Part shown: piece after piece, positions 1 through 11,227 of the stretch
Numbering within the stretch: position 1 is the stretch's first letter
How the letters are laid out: every line of letters starts with the position of its first letter
Source: a virus
Reading direction: 5' to 3' (one strand)
DNA: 23,353 bases
Virus record (IMG/VR): IMGVR_UViG_3300021347_000038
Coordinates: 1 to 23,353 of that record
Position numbers and translations under genes: made by a program
The notes under the pieces: generated by a model
The model's database searches: none
Seen by the model: the letters and a program-made list of their open reading frames with translations, nothing else
Told to the model about the DNA's origin: nothing

Positions 1-3000
1 AAGGTTATGGTATCCGGCAAGAAGCTGATCGACTGCCTCTTTCTTGTTGGCTTTGTCTGTTTTGACAACGTGAGCAAGGCCGAATTTGTTTTTCATTAGA
101 TCGGACAGTATCTTAAACTGCCGCTCGATAGGCATATTCTTACCGATTGCGGGGGTTATTCCGGCATCTCTGAACGCCTGTCCTTGGAGCGAGGAGAACC
201 GCCGCATTGAGACTTTATCAACGAGCGTTCCAGGTTTCTCGGTGCGCTGGCTATCGAGGTCTGATACTGCGAGTACGGAATCTTCCGTAGTTTCCACAGT
301 TTCTTCACTAGCCACCTCGGCTCGGCGCGTTCTTTCAGCATCATCTAACCTTGCTTTGATTGAGGCTGTATCTGCTTCTTTAAGACCTTGGCCGCCTCTC
401 TGAACGCGGGGTTTTTGTACTTGTTCGCCACTCTGTTTAGGGCGTTTGCCAGTGCCATCTGTCTCTTGGAGGAGTTTTCCTTGATTTGGGTCATCTTTCT
501 TTCCACCCTTTGCTCTTTTTTCAGCTTCTACTCTCGCCCTTCGACTGCTCTCTTGTATCAGTCCGGCGGGTGTTGTGTTGTCAACAAACATTCCAGCACC
601 TTGAGCAGACATATTCTGTGCTTCTTGTGAGAAAAATTCCAGTAGTTCTGTAATTTCTTTTTTTGATTTTGCTCTGCCAAATCCATCTGTATAAAAAGCT
701 GTAACCAAAGCCTGTGTTTCTGGTGACATTTCAACGCTGCCAAACATGGATTGTTGGCCTAATATGTCTACTAACGGTTTCTGGTCTTTTCTTGCTTGCG
801 CAATAACTTGGGCTGCTTCAACCATGAATTGCGTAACATCAAACTCTGGCGCTACCTCACCGTTTTGTATTCTGCTTTTAAGGATGGCTAGTTTAGGCGC
901 AGCGGCTAAGTAAGCATCCCCGATTGATTTTACTTTATTATCTGTATCCTCAAGAAAAGTCGCCAAGATAGAAGTGTCATTATACGCAGACGCTAAAATA
1001 GCAGCATTTATCCTGTCCATGCCTGGCTTTGTTAGCAGACCTTGACGGGTCATAGACCCACGTTCTGATTCCGCTACTGTTCTTTGGATAAACGTATTTA
1101 CAAAATCTTGGTTAGCTGCCGAATCAAGTGATGATTCCGGTCTATACAAATCAAAAATATCTATCCCTATATTTTTAGCGTCTTTCCTTGCTGCCTCTGT
1201 AGCAGAAAACGCTGCTTGTGATGGAGCGTTAGATATGTCTGCAAACTTAGACAATTCTTGGGAAGTCATGTCCTGATCGAGCATCATTACAAGAATAGGC
1301 GTTTCGTAATTTTGGTCGCTTGTTCCATAACCTTCGATTGTTTGTTTATAATTTGCGTACTGGTCTGGGTACTCATTTTTAGCAAGTTCAAGAGACAAAA
1401 CACGACCATTGCCAGATATTATTGTGCCATCCCTTGCAATGATTGGAGCGCCAAAGCTGGTGACGGGGCTTTCCATCAGCTGCGCTGGGTCTAAGTCTTT
1501 AGCCCTTTCTCGGACACCAACATCACTTTCTTTCGTGGTTCTGTCTCTTGGCTGGAAAATACCTTTAGCTTGTTTTAAGTCAGCAAGGTCTATGATAAAT
1601 GGTTTTACCTCTACTGTTTGCTCACTGTTTGGTGTGCGAATAGTTAGCGTCTTTTGCTGCCCATCAGTATCAGCCACCGGCCGTGCAAACGGAATAACCG
1701 GCTGGGCTTGCGGGTTCGCTTGCTCGGCTGCTGGTGCTGGTTGGGCTACTGGCTGAACAGCTGGTGCTGTCTCGGCTGCCGGTGCTGCCATTTCTTCTTG
1801 CATAAACTCGATGGCTTGCTTTTTCTGGCTTGCGCTATCCATCCAGAAGCTAGGCTGTTTTTCTAGTTCTGTGCCAGCCTCGTCAACCTCGACCCATCCT
1901 TCGTCATCAACGTGGGTTATATATCGTGTGTTTGTGCCGTCACTGATCGCTGTTAAGGTTTCTCGCGGATCGGTGCTTGGCTGGCCACCAATCATTTGTG
2001 GAACAGTTTTAGACGTAAACACTTGCTCGGCTGCCGGTGCTGGTTCAACTGCAACTGGCTCGACTACTGGCTGTTCGACTACCGGCTGTTCGACTACCGG
2101 CTGTTCGACTACCGGCTGTTCGACTACTGGAGCAGCCTCCGCTGCTTGCACTGGTGCAGCAAACTCTTCGGCTCTTTGTATTGCGTCAAGCAATAGCGAT
2201 CCAGTAGGCTCACCTTCTGTTTTAACCTCGGTCAGCTGGGCGTTAGCTGGATTTAACATATCCGCAGCAATAAACCCTGCCACAGTCTTTTCATCGTCAG
2301 AAATCAGCGGGTCGGGGGTTATGGCTGATTGAACACCACCGACTGTTTCAGTGCCAGTTTGTACGCCAAGCCTTATACCTCCACCAACAACGGCTCCGGC
2401 CGCCATAGATTCTTTGAACCTTGTCCAGACTTCGCCTTGCTTAAAATTCTTGCCTACGGATGCCTCAAGGCCAATACCAATACCTTCTTGCGCACCTTCA
2501 ACAAGACCTTCGGCAACCATACCACTCAGAACGGCAGCGGCAATTCTACCGCCGAAATGTTTACTTACTTTTTCGGCAAACCATTTTCCACCTAGCTTGC
2601 CAACCAATTCCTTTGGCATCCCCTTAACAAGAATACCCAAACCGACATTCTCTAAAAATCCCGCAACCAAACCGCCGCTGGAAGCCAAGGCTAATCGCTT
2701 TTCTTTCGACAGCCCTTTAATTTCCTTTAGGTTTGTGTTGTATTCCCCAGCCATTAACAGCGGAGACATCCAGCCGCCGGTCGCCAAACTAACAAGCATT
2801 GGCTCACCTGACGATCCCAAGCTGGTCTTTGCCCAATCTAAAAAATCACCAAAGTTGTCAATGTCATCAGTGGTCATCTGGCGATAACCCATAGCTTTGG
2901 CCTGATCCATCAGCCTTGTAGCGTCTTGCTTTGCCGCAGCTTCCGCAGCAATAGATGCTTTTTCGTTAGCGTTTTCTGGAAGCGGAGCAGCGCCAAAAAA

Positions 3001-3663
3001 CTCTCTGATAGGATTGACCACAGGCAACGCGGCGTTTTGCATTGTCTGCATCATTTGCATAGGCGCGGTTTCTCTCAAAACACTTTCGGCATCCGCAACA
3101 AGATTCTTAACATTGCTTTGCGCTGTATCTCGACCAAACGCAACCGCTCTGCCAAAATCCCTGTTAGGATTAAACAGCCCAGCATCGGCCCGTTCTTGGG
3201 TAGCCATCGGTTGCTGTTCTATTGCAGACATTTCATTTTGGACAATCTGTGCGTTATCGACCGGCAGCGGGTTAAACACACTAACCGGATTAACGCCATC
3301 ACGACCCAGCTGGACAGGCGCAACCATAGCAGATGGCGCTGGCTGCATGGCCATTGCGTTTTCAATGTTGTTCGATGTGTTGGCCTGTTGCGTTACCTGA
3401 TTGGCTATCTCAAAAGCATCTGGCGGCGGGGTTAGTATGCCGTCAGCCTTTGACTTAAAAGCATTGTTTCTTGCAATCTGTGCGTCAATAGGGTCTACCG
3501 GCGACTCCACCGCTGTCAGTGATGAGGGAGGAACACCATCATTGGGCGATGCCGCCGGTAGCTTGTCAATCGAATCCAACAAAAGTGAGCCAGTTGATTT
3601 GATGGCTTTTGGTGCGGGTTTCGCATTGTTTTGGCTGTCAATAAGATCAAGCAACAAAGACAT
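1..3663 (-). CDS. Giant polyvalent/ejected virion protein with DdrB-type ParB domain (partial, C-terminus outside window)
   Basis: The frame is open from ATG at 3663 to the window edge (1221 codons, no stop), so the C-terminus is missing. Residues 1-290 are low-complexity. About 290-400 is rich in small and hydrophobic residues and ends in an EGLVEGAQEGIG stretch, a pattern I associate with large phage internal proteins. About 480-670 is a Pro/Ala/Glu linker with four VVEQP repeats. About 686-825 looks like a DdrB-type ParB domain, with GAPIIARDGTIISGNGRV around residues 738-755. About 1145-1221 resembles a large polyvalent protein-associated domain (MPIERQFKILSDLM, then EAVDQLLAGYHNL). Such proteins are known in phages and conjugative elements and are thought to enter the cell with the DNA. 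Its place after the gp14/15-position genes matches T7 gene 16. I infer it is packaged and ejected. The start is 7 bases after the previous stop with only a weak GGGA SD. Family confidence is moderate to high; the biochemical activity is unknown. Confidence 0.85.
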   Translation of the reverse strand, partial: MSLLLDLIDSQNNAKPAPKAIKSTGSLLLDSIDKLPAASPNDGVPPSSLTAVESPVDPIDAQIARNNAFKSKADGILTPPPDAFEIANQVTQQANTSNNIENAMAMQPAPSAMVAPVQLGRDGVNPVSVFNPLPVDNAQIVQNEMSAIEQQPMATQERADAGLFNPNRDFGRAVAFGRDTAQSNVKNLVADAESVLRETAPMQMMQTMQNAALPVVNPIREFFGAAPLPENANEKASIAAEAAAKQDATRLMDQAKAMGYRQMTTDDIDNFGDFLDWAKTSLGSSGEPMLVSLATGGWMSPLLMAGEYNTNLKEIKGLSKEKRLALASSGGLVAGFLENVGLGILVKGMPKELVGKLGGKWFAEKVSKHFGGRIAAAVLSGMVAEGLVEGAQEGIGIGLEASVGKNFKQGEVWTRFKESMAAGAVVGGGIRLGVQTGTETVGGVQSAITPDPLISDDEKTVAGFIAADMLNPANAQLTEVKTEGEPTGSLLLDAIQRAEEFAAPVQAAEAAPVVEQPVVEQPVVEQPVVEQPVVEPVAVEPAPAAEQVFTSKTVPQMIGGQPSTDPRETLTAISDGTNTRYITHVDDEGWVEVDEAGTELEKQPSFWMDSASQKKQAIEFMQEEMAAPAAETAPAVQPVAQPAPAAEQANPQAQPVIPFARPVADTDGQQKTLTIRTPNSEQTVEVKPFIIDLADLKQAKGIFQPRDRTTKESDVGVRERAKDLDPAQLMESPVTSFGAPIIARDGTIISGNGRVLSLELAKNEYPDQYANYKQTIEGYGTSDQNYETPILVMMLDQDMTSQELSKFADISNAPSQAAFSATEAARKDAKNIGIDIFDLYRPESSLDSAANQDFVNTFIQRTVAESERGSMTRQGLLTKPGMDRINAAILASAYNDTSILATFLEDTDNKVKSIGDAYLAAAPKLAILKSRIQNGEVAPEFDVTQFMVEAAQVIAQARKDQKPLVDILGQQSMFGSVEMSPETQALVTAFYTDGFGRAKSKKEITELLEFFSQEAQNMSAQGAGMFVDNTTPAGLIQESSRRARVEAEKRAKGGKKDDPNQGKLLQETDGTGKRPKQSGEQVQKPRVQRGGQGLKEADTASIKARLDDAERTRRAEVASEETVETTEDSVLAVSDLDSQRTEKPGTLVDKVSMRRFSSLQGQAFRDAGITPAIGKNMPIERQFKILSDLMKNKFGLAHVVKTDKANKKEAVDQLLAGYHNL
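2071..2130 (-). repeat. Four 15-bp tandem repeats encoding VVEQP
   Basis: Four head-to-tail copies of ctgttcgactaccgg (plus-strand reading; the last copy has one C-to-T change) start at 2071, 2086, 2101 and 2116. A degenerate partial copy lies just before, at 2059-2070. The unit is five codons, so copy-number change keeps the frame. It encodes a Pro/Glu/Val linker in the polyvalent protein, before the ParB-like domain. Confidence 0.95.
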
Positions 3664-6871: not shown

Positions 6872-7327
6872 CTAATGAATTGTTACATTGGACGTAAAAT
6901 ATCCAATGCGATTGTTTTTAAGACCACGTTTGAAAAACGCTTTACGGCAATGACCTTTGTAATGAAGGTCAAACCATTTCTTTGTGCTGCGCACCATTTC
7001 TCGCACACCGCCAAACGGAGCCACCATGTCAATTATCCATAGCTGGCCTTGTTCCGGTGCGGTTATCCAATCAATCGGCTGCAATATTCTTGTGCCGTTG
7101 ATGTAACCGCTTTCGGCTTCTGGTGTTAGAAAAGTCCATGTCATAAAGCCGACTAATTCCTCTGTTTCATCGTCAAAGTAACATCGCGCTCGATCGTGAT
7201 AGACGGCCGGAACGATTAGCCTGTTAATGTCAGACGCACTATATCGGCGGTGAAACTTACTTTCGGACATTAAGGCGACCACCTCGCCAACAATAAAATC
7301 ATCTGAAAGTTGCACAGCTAACATCAT
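6872..7327 (-). CDS. HlyC/ApxC-type RTX-toxin-activating lysine acyltransferase homologue, 151 aa
   Basis: The sequence matches the toxin-activating acyltransferase family, whose members move an acyl chain from acyl-ACP to internal lysines of RTX toxins. Residues 24-42 (KFHRRYS, then INRLIVPAV) correspond to the HlyC segment around catalytic His23, giving H26 here. The block LVGFMTWTFLTPEAE matches the HlyC VAYCSWANLSLENE strand. Residues 86-106 (DWITA, then LWIIDMVAPFG) match the HlyC DWTSG and WFIDWIAPFG block holding Asp92, giving D100 here. Both catalytic residues thus appear kept. HlyC is 170 aa. The gene overlaps the previous stop (ATGA), and ATG at 7327 or 7324 could start it. No RTX toxin is in the window; the substrate is unknown and may be a virion protein. 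Confidence 0.8.
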   Translation of the reverse strand: MMLAVQLSDDFIVGEVVALMSESKFHRRYSASDINRLIVPAVYHDRARCYFDDETEELVGFMTWTFLTPEAESGYINGTRILQPIDWITAPEQGQLWIIDMVAPFGGVREMVRSTKKWFDLHYKGHCRKAFFKRGLKNNRIGYFTSNVTIH

Positions 7328-7923
7328 CCCACATTCCTTGCTGATGATTCGGGTGCAAAAAGCCCTGTTGGATAACGTGCTTTAGTTCTTCGCTCCAAGT
7401 CAGCTTGCGTTGCCAGACCTTCGGCTGCCGAGGCAAATAAATTAGTTATCGGATCAAATACCGGCACTTCGTTTAATTGCTGGGCGCGGGTCAAAGCATT
7501 AGCCGATGCAAGCGCTGGATCAGCCATATTCATATTTTGGCTTTGTAGCCCACTTCTAGCAGCTTCAATGTCAGCCCTTGCCTTGTTTGAATAATCTTCA
7601 GCGGTAAGATTCATCTTACGGGTCATCTCGCCAAGCTGCTTTTCCAACCGCCCTCTTCGCCGCGCTGCTATTGAAGATTGTGACAAATTGCTTGCAGCCA
7701 GAGTCTTGCGCAATTTTTCAAAGGCATCTTGGTACTGCTCATTAATTTGAGGCTGCGCATAGCCAGTGTAAGCCTCGCGCCGACCTTTGAAAAAATCATC
7801 GTCAAACTGGCTAAAGGTATCGTTTATAGCTTTATTGCCAGCCCGTATTCGGCCTTGCCGTTCTTCCTCTTGGCGTTTTCTTTCGGCTGCACCGCCGTCA
7901 CCGCCACCGCCACCCATGCACAT
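7324..7923 (-). CDS. Putative virion structural protein (MCMGGGGG type), 199 aa, paralogue of the 360-aa protein
   Basis: It starts MCMGGGGGDGG, followed by a strongly charged helical region (residues 13-30, RKRQEEERQGR) and a long helix-rich body. Met-Cys-Gly-rich starts are common among internal virion proteins of marine podoviruses. Residues 37-84 (FSQFDDDFFKGRREAY onward, with P58 and Y64) align without gaps to residues 173-220 of the 360-aa protein. The Arg-rich stretch AARRRGRLEKQ follows. It overlaps the upstream GNAT-like gene by one base (TAATG). Function is unknown; I infer a helical internal or connector-associated protein. Confidence 0.78.
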   Translation of the reverse strand: MCMGGGGGDGGAAERKRQEEERQGRIRAGNKAINDTFSQFDDDFFKGRREAYTGYAQPQINEQYQDAFEKLRKTLAASNLSQSSIAARRRGRLEKQLGEMTRKMNLTAEDYSNKARADIEAARSGLQSQNMNMADPALASANALTRAQQLNEVPVFDPITNLFASAAEGLATQADLERRTKARYPTGLFAPESSARNVG

Positions 7924-8447
7924 TACGCTACTACTCCTGGTTTATGCCACTTAACAGAACCCTGCTCTGATTGTGGCTGCCTTACATAAGAAAAGTTAAT
8001 AAAGTCCTCGCCATTACAGCCGTATCCTCTCAAGACACTCTCTTCTTCCAGACCTAAAAACTTCAACCAATTATGCACACTCTCGTATCCCACTATTGAT
8101 TGCGCCTCGACCCTGTGCGCACCGGCATTATCCAACGTAGGTATTATACTCTTTATGATGAGTTTTGTCAGCGAAAGGTGGATTTTGTAGAACTGGTCAG
8201 TCGCAAAAAGCCCCATATTCCACACACCCCTGCGCTGCGGTATGTAGGTAAACGCGGCAATGCCTCCGTGTTCCTTTGTTCCGCATACAATGCTTGTTTC
8301 AGAACGTGACCAAGATCGTGCAATTTCATCAGCCAGATCATGCCGGTTATCGGTAAAACTTAATGCCGAACACTCGTCATAGTCGCGCTGCCTCATGTTA
8401 AGAGCAATGTCATAAAGAGCGCCAATGCTTGCTCGATGCCAGATCAA
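7923..8447 (-). CDS. T7 gp13-like internal virion protein with GNAT-type acetyltransferase fold, 174 aa
   Basis: The order of elements suggests a GNAT fold. A central pair of strands (TSIVCGTKEHGGIAAFTYI, about residues 51-69) is followed by a long helix (about 86-103) and then HRVEAQSIVGYESVHNWLKF with LGLEEESVLRGYGCNG, the usual GNAT C-terminal pattern. The classical acetyl-CoA loop (R/QxxGxG/A) is not visible before the long helix, so it may not be a working enzyme. Its position right after the tail nozzle matches T7 gene 13, needed for virion assembly. The start is TTG at 8447, overlapping the nozzle stop (TTGA). A GGGGAG SD 9 bases upstream supports TTG over the next ATG (codon 18). Confidence 0.75.
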   Translation of the reverse strand: MIWHRASIGALYDIALNMRQRDYDECSALSFTDNRHDLADEIARSWSRSETSIVCGTKEHGGIAAFTYIPQRRGVWNMGLFATDQFYKIHLSLTKLIIKSIIPTLDNAGAHRVEAQSIVGYESVHNWLKFLGLEEESVLRGYGCNGEDFINFSYVRQPQSEQGSVKWHKPGVVA

Positions 8448-10519: not shown

Positions 10520-11227
10520 TTAACTCGATGCTATAAGCGGTGGGTTTCTTGGGCGATAAAGACCTTCTGGCTCACCGCCGCCAATAATAAATGTTTCTGA
10601 TTTTGCTAACCGCGCTTTTAGCCGTGAATAATGGGCTTGCGCTTGCGCTAGTTTGTTTTGAGAGTCAGCTTGCTTTTGCCTCGCTAACATTTCAGCTGCG
10701 CCGTACAAAACAATAAGCTGGTCGTCCAAGTCGGCTTTATCGCTATCGTTTATTAAGCCGCCAAGGTTTTTGATGCCGTGCAAACGAATCATGCCGTCAC
10801 CGGTTAATGGGTCACTATTAGCGGATGGCACTGGCCACATTTCTATTTGATCGTTTTCAGATGCGTCATAGCGCTGTATAGGGCTTGAGGTTTTTCCTCG
10901 ATCGCTGTCATACTGGTTGTATTGGGCAGCACCTACGCCATACTCGACCTTTTCCCAATAATCCCCACGCTTAAACTCAACACGCTCGATACGCTCAAAC
11001 ACCATATCGGCTGGCAAATCGTAATACCGCTGATTTTGTGAAATTGTAAGATCGCGCATTACTCTTAAAAAAGGCCATGCGTAATCATCCCAAAGCCTCC
11101 TTTGTGTTCTTTGAATAACATTAATCAGCACATCCCTAGTTGATTTACCGAGGTTTGGCTCAAGTGAATGACCAATTTCAGATCGCAAATCATTTATCAG
11201 GATTGCTAGGGTTGTGCCTCTTGCCAT
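10520..11227 (-). CDS. Tail tubular protein A / portal-tail adaptor (T7 gp11-like), 235 aa
   Basis: Features of the gp11/gp4-type adaptor are clear. There is a helical N-terminus (LINDLRSEIG), then RRLWDDYAWPFLRVMRDLTI, then a QRYYDLPADM strand and loop, and ERIERVEFKRGDYWEKVEYG. The C-terminal helices (LYGAAEMLARQKQADSQNKL) end in an extended tail (EGLYRPRNPPLIASS). Adaptors form a dodecameric ring under the portal and join it to the nozzle. T7 gp11 is 196 aa. The ATG at 11227 has a strong GAGGAG SD, and the nozzle starts 3 bases after the stop. Confidence 0.88.
   Translation of the reverse strand: MARGTTLAILINDLRSEIGHSLEPNLGKSTRDVLINVIQRTQRRLWDDYAWPFLRVMRDLTISQNQRYYDLPADMVFERIERVEFKRGDYWEKVEYGVGAAQYNQYDSDRGKTSSPIQRYDASENDQIEMWPVPSANSDPLTGDGMIRLHGIKNLGGLINDSDKADLDDQLIVLYGAAEMLARQKQADSQNKLAQAQAHYSRLKARLAKSETFIIGGGEPEGLYRPRNPPLIASS

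Follow-up and report, generated by a model that had tools for sequence, protein, structure and literature searches.

Podophage ejection proteins, such as T7 gp16, and injected polyvalent effectors of the P1 DdrB type are treated apart in the literature that we examined. The gene of T7 gp16 is the last ejection gene and follows those of tail tubular A and B and of the smaller ejection proteins. Virions of phage P1 contain DdrB (39 peptides, 59.5% coverage; PMC9024508), one of the co-ejected Dar proteins, which guard DNA from type I restriction by EcoB and EcoK (PMC12810830); under laboratory conditions, the phage can do without DdrB (PMC10695390). Polyvalent proteins, in which domains of unlike activity are joined in one late-gene polypeptide, were described by Iyer et al. 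2017 (PMC5512222), and combinations of DdrB-type ParB domains, a metallopeptidase (MPTase) and large-polyvalent-protein-associated domains (LPDs) are known from there. We analysed a giant gene on the 23,353-base IMG/VR virus fragment IMGVR_UViG_3300021347_000038 (‘the window’, meaning the whole stretch of DNA analysed). Our data indicate that its DdrB-type ParB module is an exchangeable cassette, carried ahead of a conserved rear half that is here termed the chassis. Judged by the C-termini of relatives, not by the window’s own residues, this rear half appears to be related to T7 gp16.

The frame of the giant protein runs on the minus strand from position 3663 to position 1, where it is still open after 1,221 codons. 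This agrees with the first-pass annotation, which had been made from the letters of the window alone, had named no strand and had read the product as a polyvalent protein with a DdrB-type ParB domain. The reading is supported by a match to PF18763 with an E value of 3.4e-24 (85.7 bits compared to the Pfam cut-off of 27.6), the sole above-cut-off Pfam domain in the 1,221 amino acids, and the SGNGR motif was found at exactly the residues named before. Of 56 aligned homologues, P1 DdrB included, 98% share the arginine of this motif (R754), and Y772 is conserved to the same extent. By position, we equate these residues with the conserved pocket Arg and the family-specific Tyr in an extra helix that mark DdrB-ParB domains (PMC5512222). 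The residues conserved across the aligned modules are Q704, R706, D707, R708, G738, P740, the SGNGR motif, Y772, P789, N812, E823, D828 and R884. At residue 793 (1285-1287, minus strand), the window, L012 and L028 carry Met, and 88% of the aligned ParB modules carry Arg.

Together with the helical extension that follows it, the ParB domain was found to align with P1 DdrB, phage P7 Prt and proteins of other phages over residues 703-986, with 29.7% identity to P1 DdrB. Among virion proteins known from experiments, P1 DdrB is the closest one to carry this ParB module. It also has a zincin HExxH further on; the zincin profile of the chassis showed no match to its HELGHH at residue 872. Unlike the giant protein, P1 DdrB has 995 amino acids and no gp16-type chassis and is encoded in the dar operon. 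The extension contains a Box III-like motif, N-x10-E-x-A, starting at N812. By motif only, QPR, SGNGR and this motif would occupy the places of Box I, Box II and Box III of chromosomal ParB. An AlphaFold 2 (AF2) model of residues 665-1045 reached a predicted local distance difference test (pLDDT) score of 88 and a predicted template-modelling score (pTM) of 0.80. In a Foldseek search, its sole probable PDB matches were two chains of the pNOB8 ParB-N structure 5k5d (prob 0.99, E 0.02-0.03). PDB sequence searches with the window protein, the ParB module, the zincin and the chassis returned nothing. In a 2025 survey of the ParB fold, in which DdrB goes unmentioned, CTP, ATP or GTP was bound, and nucleoside triphosphate (NTP) binding was found to be a general property of the fold (PMC12704722). 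The ParB cassette is predicted to bind an NTP, which we hold to be somewhat more likely than not.

Everything past residue 1,221 comes from relatives; a contig that extends the window exactly leftward of position 1 was searched for and not found. The closest relative is L002 (IMGVR_UViG_3300037621_000439), a metagenomic virus contig with a protein of 2,015 amino acids and a true stop; it shows 91% identity to window residues 512-1221 and then runs for 1,255 codons to the stop. The N-terminal part is supplied by L003 from the same sample. Because the window protein is collinear with L002, its intact form should be near 2,480 amino acids long. In L002, the C-terminal half comprises the zincin motif HEWFHALDHY, an LPD1 domain (PF18796, E 5e-11) and a further stretch of about 950 residues. 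The recognised domains are thus ParB alone in the window, and ParB, zincin and LPD1 when the C-terminus of this relative is added. The earlier suggestion that the missing C-terminus might hold effectors proved right for the zincin, LPD1 and a virion-type region of about 950 amino acids; a further recognised nucleic-acid effector was not found there. An LPD that had been assigned to the visible part is absent from it: none was detected within the 1,221 amino acids by Pfam up to E = 1, NCBIfam or PHROGs, and the ParB domain is followed by the extension common to P1 DdrB. LPD1 sits past the window edge, and an LPD is no requirement for every polyvalent protein.

The rear ~1,300 amino acids form the chassis, which was found in some 100 viral contigs. 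A first scan yielded 77 viral loci and 5 loci in genome bins labelled Alphaproteobacteria; rescanning with a query from the C-terminus added further ones. Unnamed members of the chassis-bearing family also appear to be present in public protein databases. In Microcystis phage Mae-Yong1326-1, the last virion gene encodes the same chassis (UUJ74515; 28% identity over 1,334 amino acids, E 4e-128) and stands at the same place in a syntenic late operon. This giant differs from that of the window in lacking ParB and in carrying an M78-like HELGH segment in its N-terminal half. In most members, the C-terminal ~530 amino acids of the chassis match PHROG virion structural families. The family of T7 gp16, phrog_342 (where T7 gp16 scores 1,355 bits), is matched by 11 of 27 chassis C-termini with a best E value of 4.7e-18; L050 alone aligns to positions 745-1093 of 1,235 (E 2.6e-14). 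Comparison of 64 chassis with T7 gp16 by hhalign gave one collinear alignment of 381 columns with T7 residues 795-1204 (E 5e-4, compared to 0.23 for reversed T7). In T7 gp16, this segment takes in the latter portion of the cytoplasmic gp16-C together with some of transmembrane region II (PMC8954989). As in T7 gp16, hydrophobic stretches lie near the C-terminus and the C-terminal tail is basic, with a mean net charge of +2.3 in the chassis tails compared to 0.0 for internal 15-mers.

The giant protein differs from T7 gp16 in being about twice as long and in carrying the zincin, LPD1 and ParB ahead of the common region. It also differs in that an SLT/transglycosylase domain was found neither in the window’s 1,221 amino acids nor in L002 or 39 N-terminal halves of relatives. 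The transglycosylase is not universal in gp16-type proteins and is missing from those of P22-like phages (PMC8954989). The first-pass annotation had compared the gene with T7 gene 16 by position. With the phrog_342 and hhalign results and the missing transglycosylase domain, this positional analogy becomes a partial homology in which the front half has been replaced. The gene order agrees with this comparison. On the same strand, the window carries terminase, portal, scaffold-like, major capsid (phrog_9953), SU10-adaptor/tail tubular A, tail tubular B and phrog_308-type genes, then ejection-cluster genes and the giant gene, which gives the latter the late/virion gene context of polyvalent proteins. 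That it follows ejection genes had been claimed before and holds in relatives as well, where it closes the late operon with order and strand kept; upstream on the same strand, where visible, tail tubular B was found in 47 loci, a 199-aa gene in 43 and the phrog_308-type gene in 36.

The chassis starts within the window directly upstream of the zincin HExxH, which falls off the contig. In relatives, the marks of a zincin metallopeptidase are present (HExxH, Asp at +3 and a downstream Glu, as in HEWFHALD), and the Asp agrees with the phage-type MPTase of Iyer et al. (PMC5512222). Since the first set of relatives was found with the search motif NSFAHEW, which all 82 loci contain, the invariance of HExxH in that set is an artefact and was discarded. 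When the search was repeated with the C-terminal query, the motif held: loci found without it keep HExxH and the Asp three residues on, with varying neighbours (HEWMH, HEWGH, HEWTH, HEHWH, HELWH). Y948, E954, R958 and E961 (P0002 numbering), which lie outside the search motif, are invariant among relatives. Three chassis (L142, L147 and L158) gave no zincin match. The AF2 model of the zincin (pLDDT 90) gave weak zincin matches in the PDB, and in a viral library its Foldseek matches were mostly unnamed uncultured-phage proteins, some of them labelled LPD-containing.

Its location between cassette and chassis makes the zincin well placed to free the cassette, and the chances that it processes the giant protein seem to us about even. 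The zincin might instead leave the giant protein intact and be an effector against a host protein, or a folding or structural module as perhaps in N4 vRNAP, an alternative that we regard as possible but doubtful. N4 vRNAP is similarly built, with an effector (an RNA polymerase, unlike here), an HExxH and a helical C-terminal domain (CTD) of ~1,100 amino acids, and it is encoded by the last virion-cluster gene (PMC12633501). It keeps the HExxH and the large helical domain and is packaged uncut (PMC5512222, PMC12633501). However, the zincin of the giant protein is located precisely where cassette and chassis join and has invariant HExxH..D and E/ARxxE residues, and P1 DdrB undergoes cleavage before it is packaged (PMC5512222). 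A homology between the chassis and the N4 vRNAP CTD was considered as well and rejected, as it was not detected when 64 chassis were compared with 10 N4-like CTDs by hhalign (best E 0.035, prob 1.4, limited to the region of the HExxH).

The ParB module is an exchangeable cassette in front of the chassis. It is present in 44 of the 62 relatives with a complete front half and absent from 18, a ratio that is not a population frequency because the relatives depend on search motifs. On the chassis tree (a quick tree with a simple model), its distribution requires at least 7 gains or losses, all forced by well supported branches. The chassis of L153 and L155 are 91.7% identical over 1,412 residues, and residues 659-1185 of L153, which include ParB, correspond to 22 residues in L155. 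At L046:2530-5160, a polyvalent ADP-ribosyltransferase (PF18760, E 3e-29) takes the place of ParB on the same chassis. Mae-Yong1326-1 (L004) has at residues 924-968, where relatives carry ParB, an M78-like segment with a second HExxH (HELGH at 954; weak Pfam match, E 0.09). Most ParB-less relatives have nothing recognisable in the front half. The hydrophobic N-terminal segment is likewise mosaic, being strong in L013, L030, L069 and L067 and largely missing from L028, the chassis-nearest full-length relative.

In the cytoplasm, the cassette would act on the incoming genome, most likely by NTP-controlled binding that shields it from restriction, as P1 DdrB helps to do; we propose such protection of the entering DNA tentatively. 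The dispensability of P1 DdrB and the exchange of the cassette are easier to reconcile with a role in anti-defence than with a structural role. A structural cassette would aid capsid entry of the giant or of partner proteins, or would hold the DNA end in the head, and would have no role after entry. P1 DdrB is indeed listed as a protein that ‘aids DarB addition to capsid’ (PMC9024508), and deletion of Hdf and DarA keeps the other Dar proteins out of the P1 head (PMC12810830). This alternative is nevertheless unlikely, given the 18 complete relatives that lack the cassette, among them L155 with its chassis nearly identical to that of ParB-bearing L153, and given that P1 ddrB is unnecessary for plaques (PMC10695390). 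Alternatively, the cassette might be a nuclease (or NTPase) effector directed against host or rival DNA, or might initiate replication by nicking DNA, as Iyer et al. suggested for ParB domains of the DdrB type (PMC5512222). This reading could draw on the DNase-active ParB/Srx relatives reviewed there and on the conserved pocket residues R754 and Y772, but it is quite unlikely, as P1 DdrB, the sole member with genetics, is a lab-dispensable anti-restriction/capsid-assembly factor (PMC9024508, PMC12810830, PMC10695390), NTP binding is general to the fold (PMC12704722) and Iyer et al. favour NTP sensing or degradation over DNase activity for these domains (PMC5512222).

Taking the domain content, chassis homology, synteny, conservation and cassette exchange shown above together, the best explanation is probably a gp16-type podophage ejection protein that delivers an effector cassette. 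By analogy with the known systems, it is very likely that the giant protein is packaged and ejected. The chassis (zincin, LPD1 and the rear of ~950 amino acids) would be packed with the other ejection proteins and would enter before or with the DNA. Its gp16-like C-terminal region would form the section of the ejection channel that lies in the inner membrane and the cytoplasm. Together with the helical extension, the ParB module would be delivered with the chassis as a nucleotide-binding, DNA-handling cassette, and the zincin between the two would cut the polyprotein and thereby free the cassette.

Several points weigh against this explanation. The N-terminus of T7 gp16 remains periplasmic, so that a nucleotide-binding ParB domain would be idle there unless released or translocated. 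The phage is known here from sequence alone, and the zincin, LPD1 and gp16-like region were all taken from the 91%-identical relative, outside the window. The homology to gp16 is drawn mainly from the PHROG profile, as hhalign assigned a probability of just 31% to the alignment with T7 gp16 (a single T7 sequence). When the ParB module and chromosomal ParB were compared by profile, no link was detected; the assignment of Box I to Box III is for this reason by motif only, and homology to chromosomal ParB by profile was dropped, leaving an agreement in fold and motifs.

In a more specific form of the delivery explanation, the ejection channel would carry an NTP-gated ParB DNA clamp. It would grip the leading genome end at the cytoplasmic gp16-like ring, nucleotide binding and hydrolysis would control or ratchet entry, the DNA would be shielded, and the zincin would release the clamp after entry; we consider this version very unlikely. 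The genome clamp formed by gp16-C in T7 was inferred from mutants. Assuming the ParB version to be correct, a ParB switch would here make up, or assist, such a gp16-C genome clamp.

The link to gp16-C and the exchange of cassettes on a common chassis are the additions made here; a limited search of the open-licence literature found no prior description of these two or of the Box III-like motif. Iyer et al. 2017 treated DdrB-ParB architectures generally, and in the available part of that paper we noticed no gp16 link of such a protein (PMC5512222). If true, the delivery explanation joins podophage ejection proteins and injected polyvalent effectors: in a large podophage family that is mainly environmental, the final ejection protein would serve as a delivery chassis whose front cassette can be exchanged. 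A direct comparison on restricting hosts then becomes possible between sibling phages whose chassis are ~92% identical and of which one carries the ParB cassette and the other does not, and the nucleotide bound by DdrB-type ParB, left out of the survey of the fold (PMC12704722), becomes measurable.

Table 1. Features of the giant gene and of the genes upstream of it in the window
Feature	Position	Strand	Remarks
Giant ejection-type polyvalent protein, N-terminal 1,221 aa, C-terminus off contig	1..3663	-	ATG at 3663
Start of conserved chassis, residues 1151-1221	1..213	-	matches Mae-Yong1326-1 giant and L002
ParB helical extension, residues 794-1040, common to P1 DdrB	544..1284	-	N812, E823, D828, R884 conserved
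DdrB-like ParB domain, residues 681-793	1285..1623	-	PF18763 ddrB-ParB
SGNGR, residues 750-754, at ParB Box II (GxxR) place	1402..1416	-	GxxR motif per PMC12704722
QPRDR, residues 704-708, at ParB Box I place	1540..1554	-	86-96% conserved; Box I by motif
PVVEQ/PVVEP linker repeats, residues 511-540	2044..2133	-	5 copies in window
Ala/Gly-rich hydrophobic N-terminal segment, about residues 290-450	2314..2796	-	
Ejection-cluster gene upstream of giant, 504 aa	3670..5184	-	syntenic in relatives
Ejection-cluster gene, 194 aa	5195..5779	-	syntenic in relatives
Ejection-cluster gene, 360 aa	5780..6862	-	syntenic in relatives
HlyC/RTX-toxin acyltransferase family protein, 151 aa	6872-7327	-	PF02794 E 5e-20; phrog_20210 (unknown function)
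Internal-virion-protein-like gene, 174 aa	7923..8447	-	phrog_308
Tail tubular B-type protein, 690 aa	8444..10516	-	named by position
Tail tubular A-type / SU10 adaptor protein	10520..11227	-	PF24175

The Ala/Gly-rich hydrophobic segment and the VVEQP linker of the first-pass annotation were both recovered in the N-terminal part, the latter as five PVVEQ/PVVEP repeats from residue 512. The repeat number varies (5 in the window compared to 10 in L002), and the start of L002 and the end of L003 both lie near the repeat, which is thus a likely assembly break or hazard. A conserved N-terminal ‘GE..E..QE’ motif was dropped as a candidate, as it was found in 7 of 64 only. The 91% identity to another IMG/VR contig, together with a ratio of nonsynonymous to synonymous substitution rates (dN/dS) of 0.08-0.42 between the window and L002 depending on the region, indicates that the gene is not a chance open reading frame (ORF). 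The dS itself is uneven, with 1.06 in the helical extension (544-1284, minus strand) compared to 0.09-0.29 in the flanking segments. This several-fold excess suggests recombination inside the giant gene. In L002, an integrase-like ORF (6940-8010, minus strand; judged by eye from the translation) is convergent with the giant gene and hints at a temperate life style.

Among the other genes of the window, the portal is split into two frames with weak matches. PADLOC gave no match. The acyltransferase-family protein (6872-7327), which lies amid the ejection genes, shows an SxxHR-type and a D..APFG motif. Its gene is found at the same place in L016, L070 and L074 and is absent from L003. This HlyC-family protein might acylate an ejection protein.

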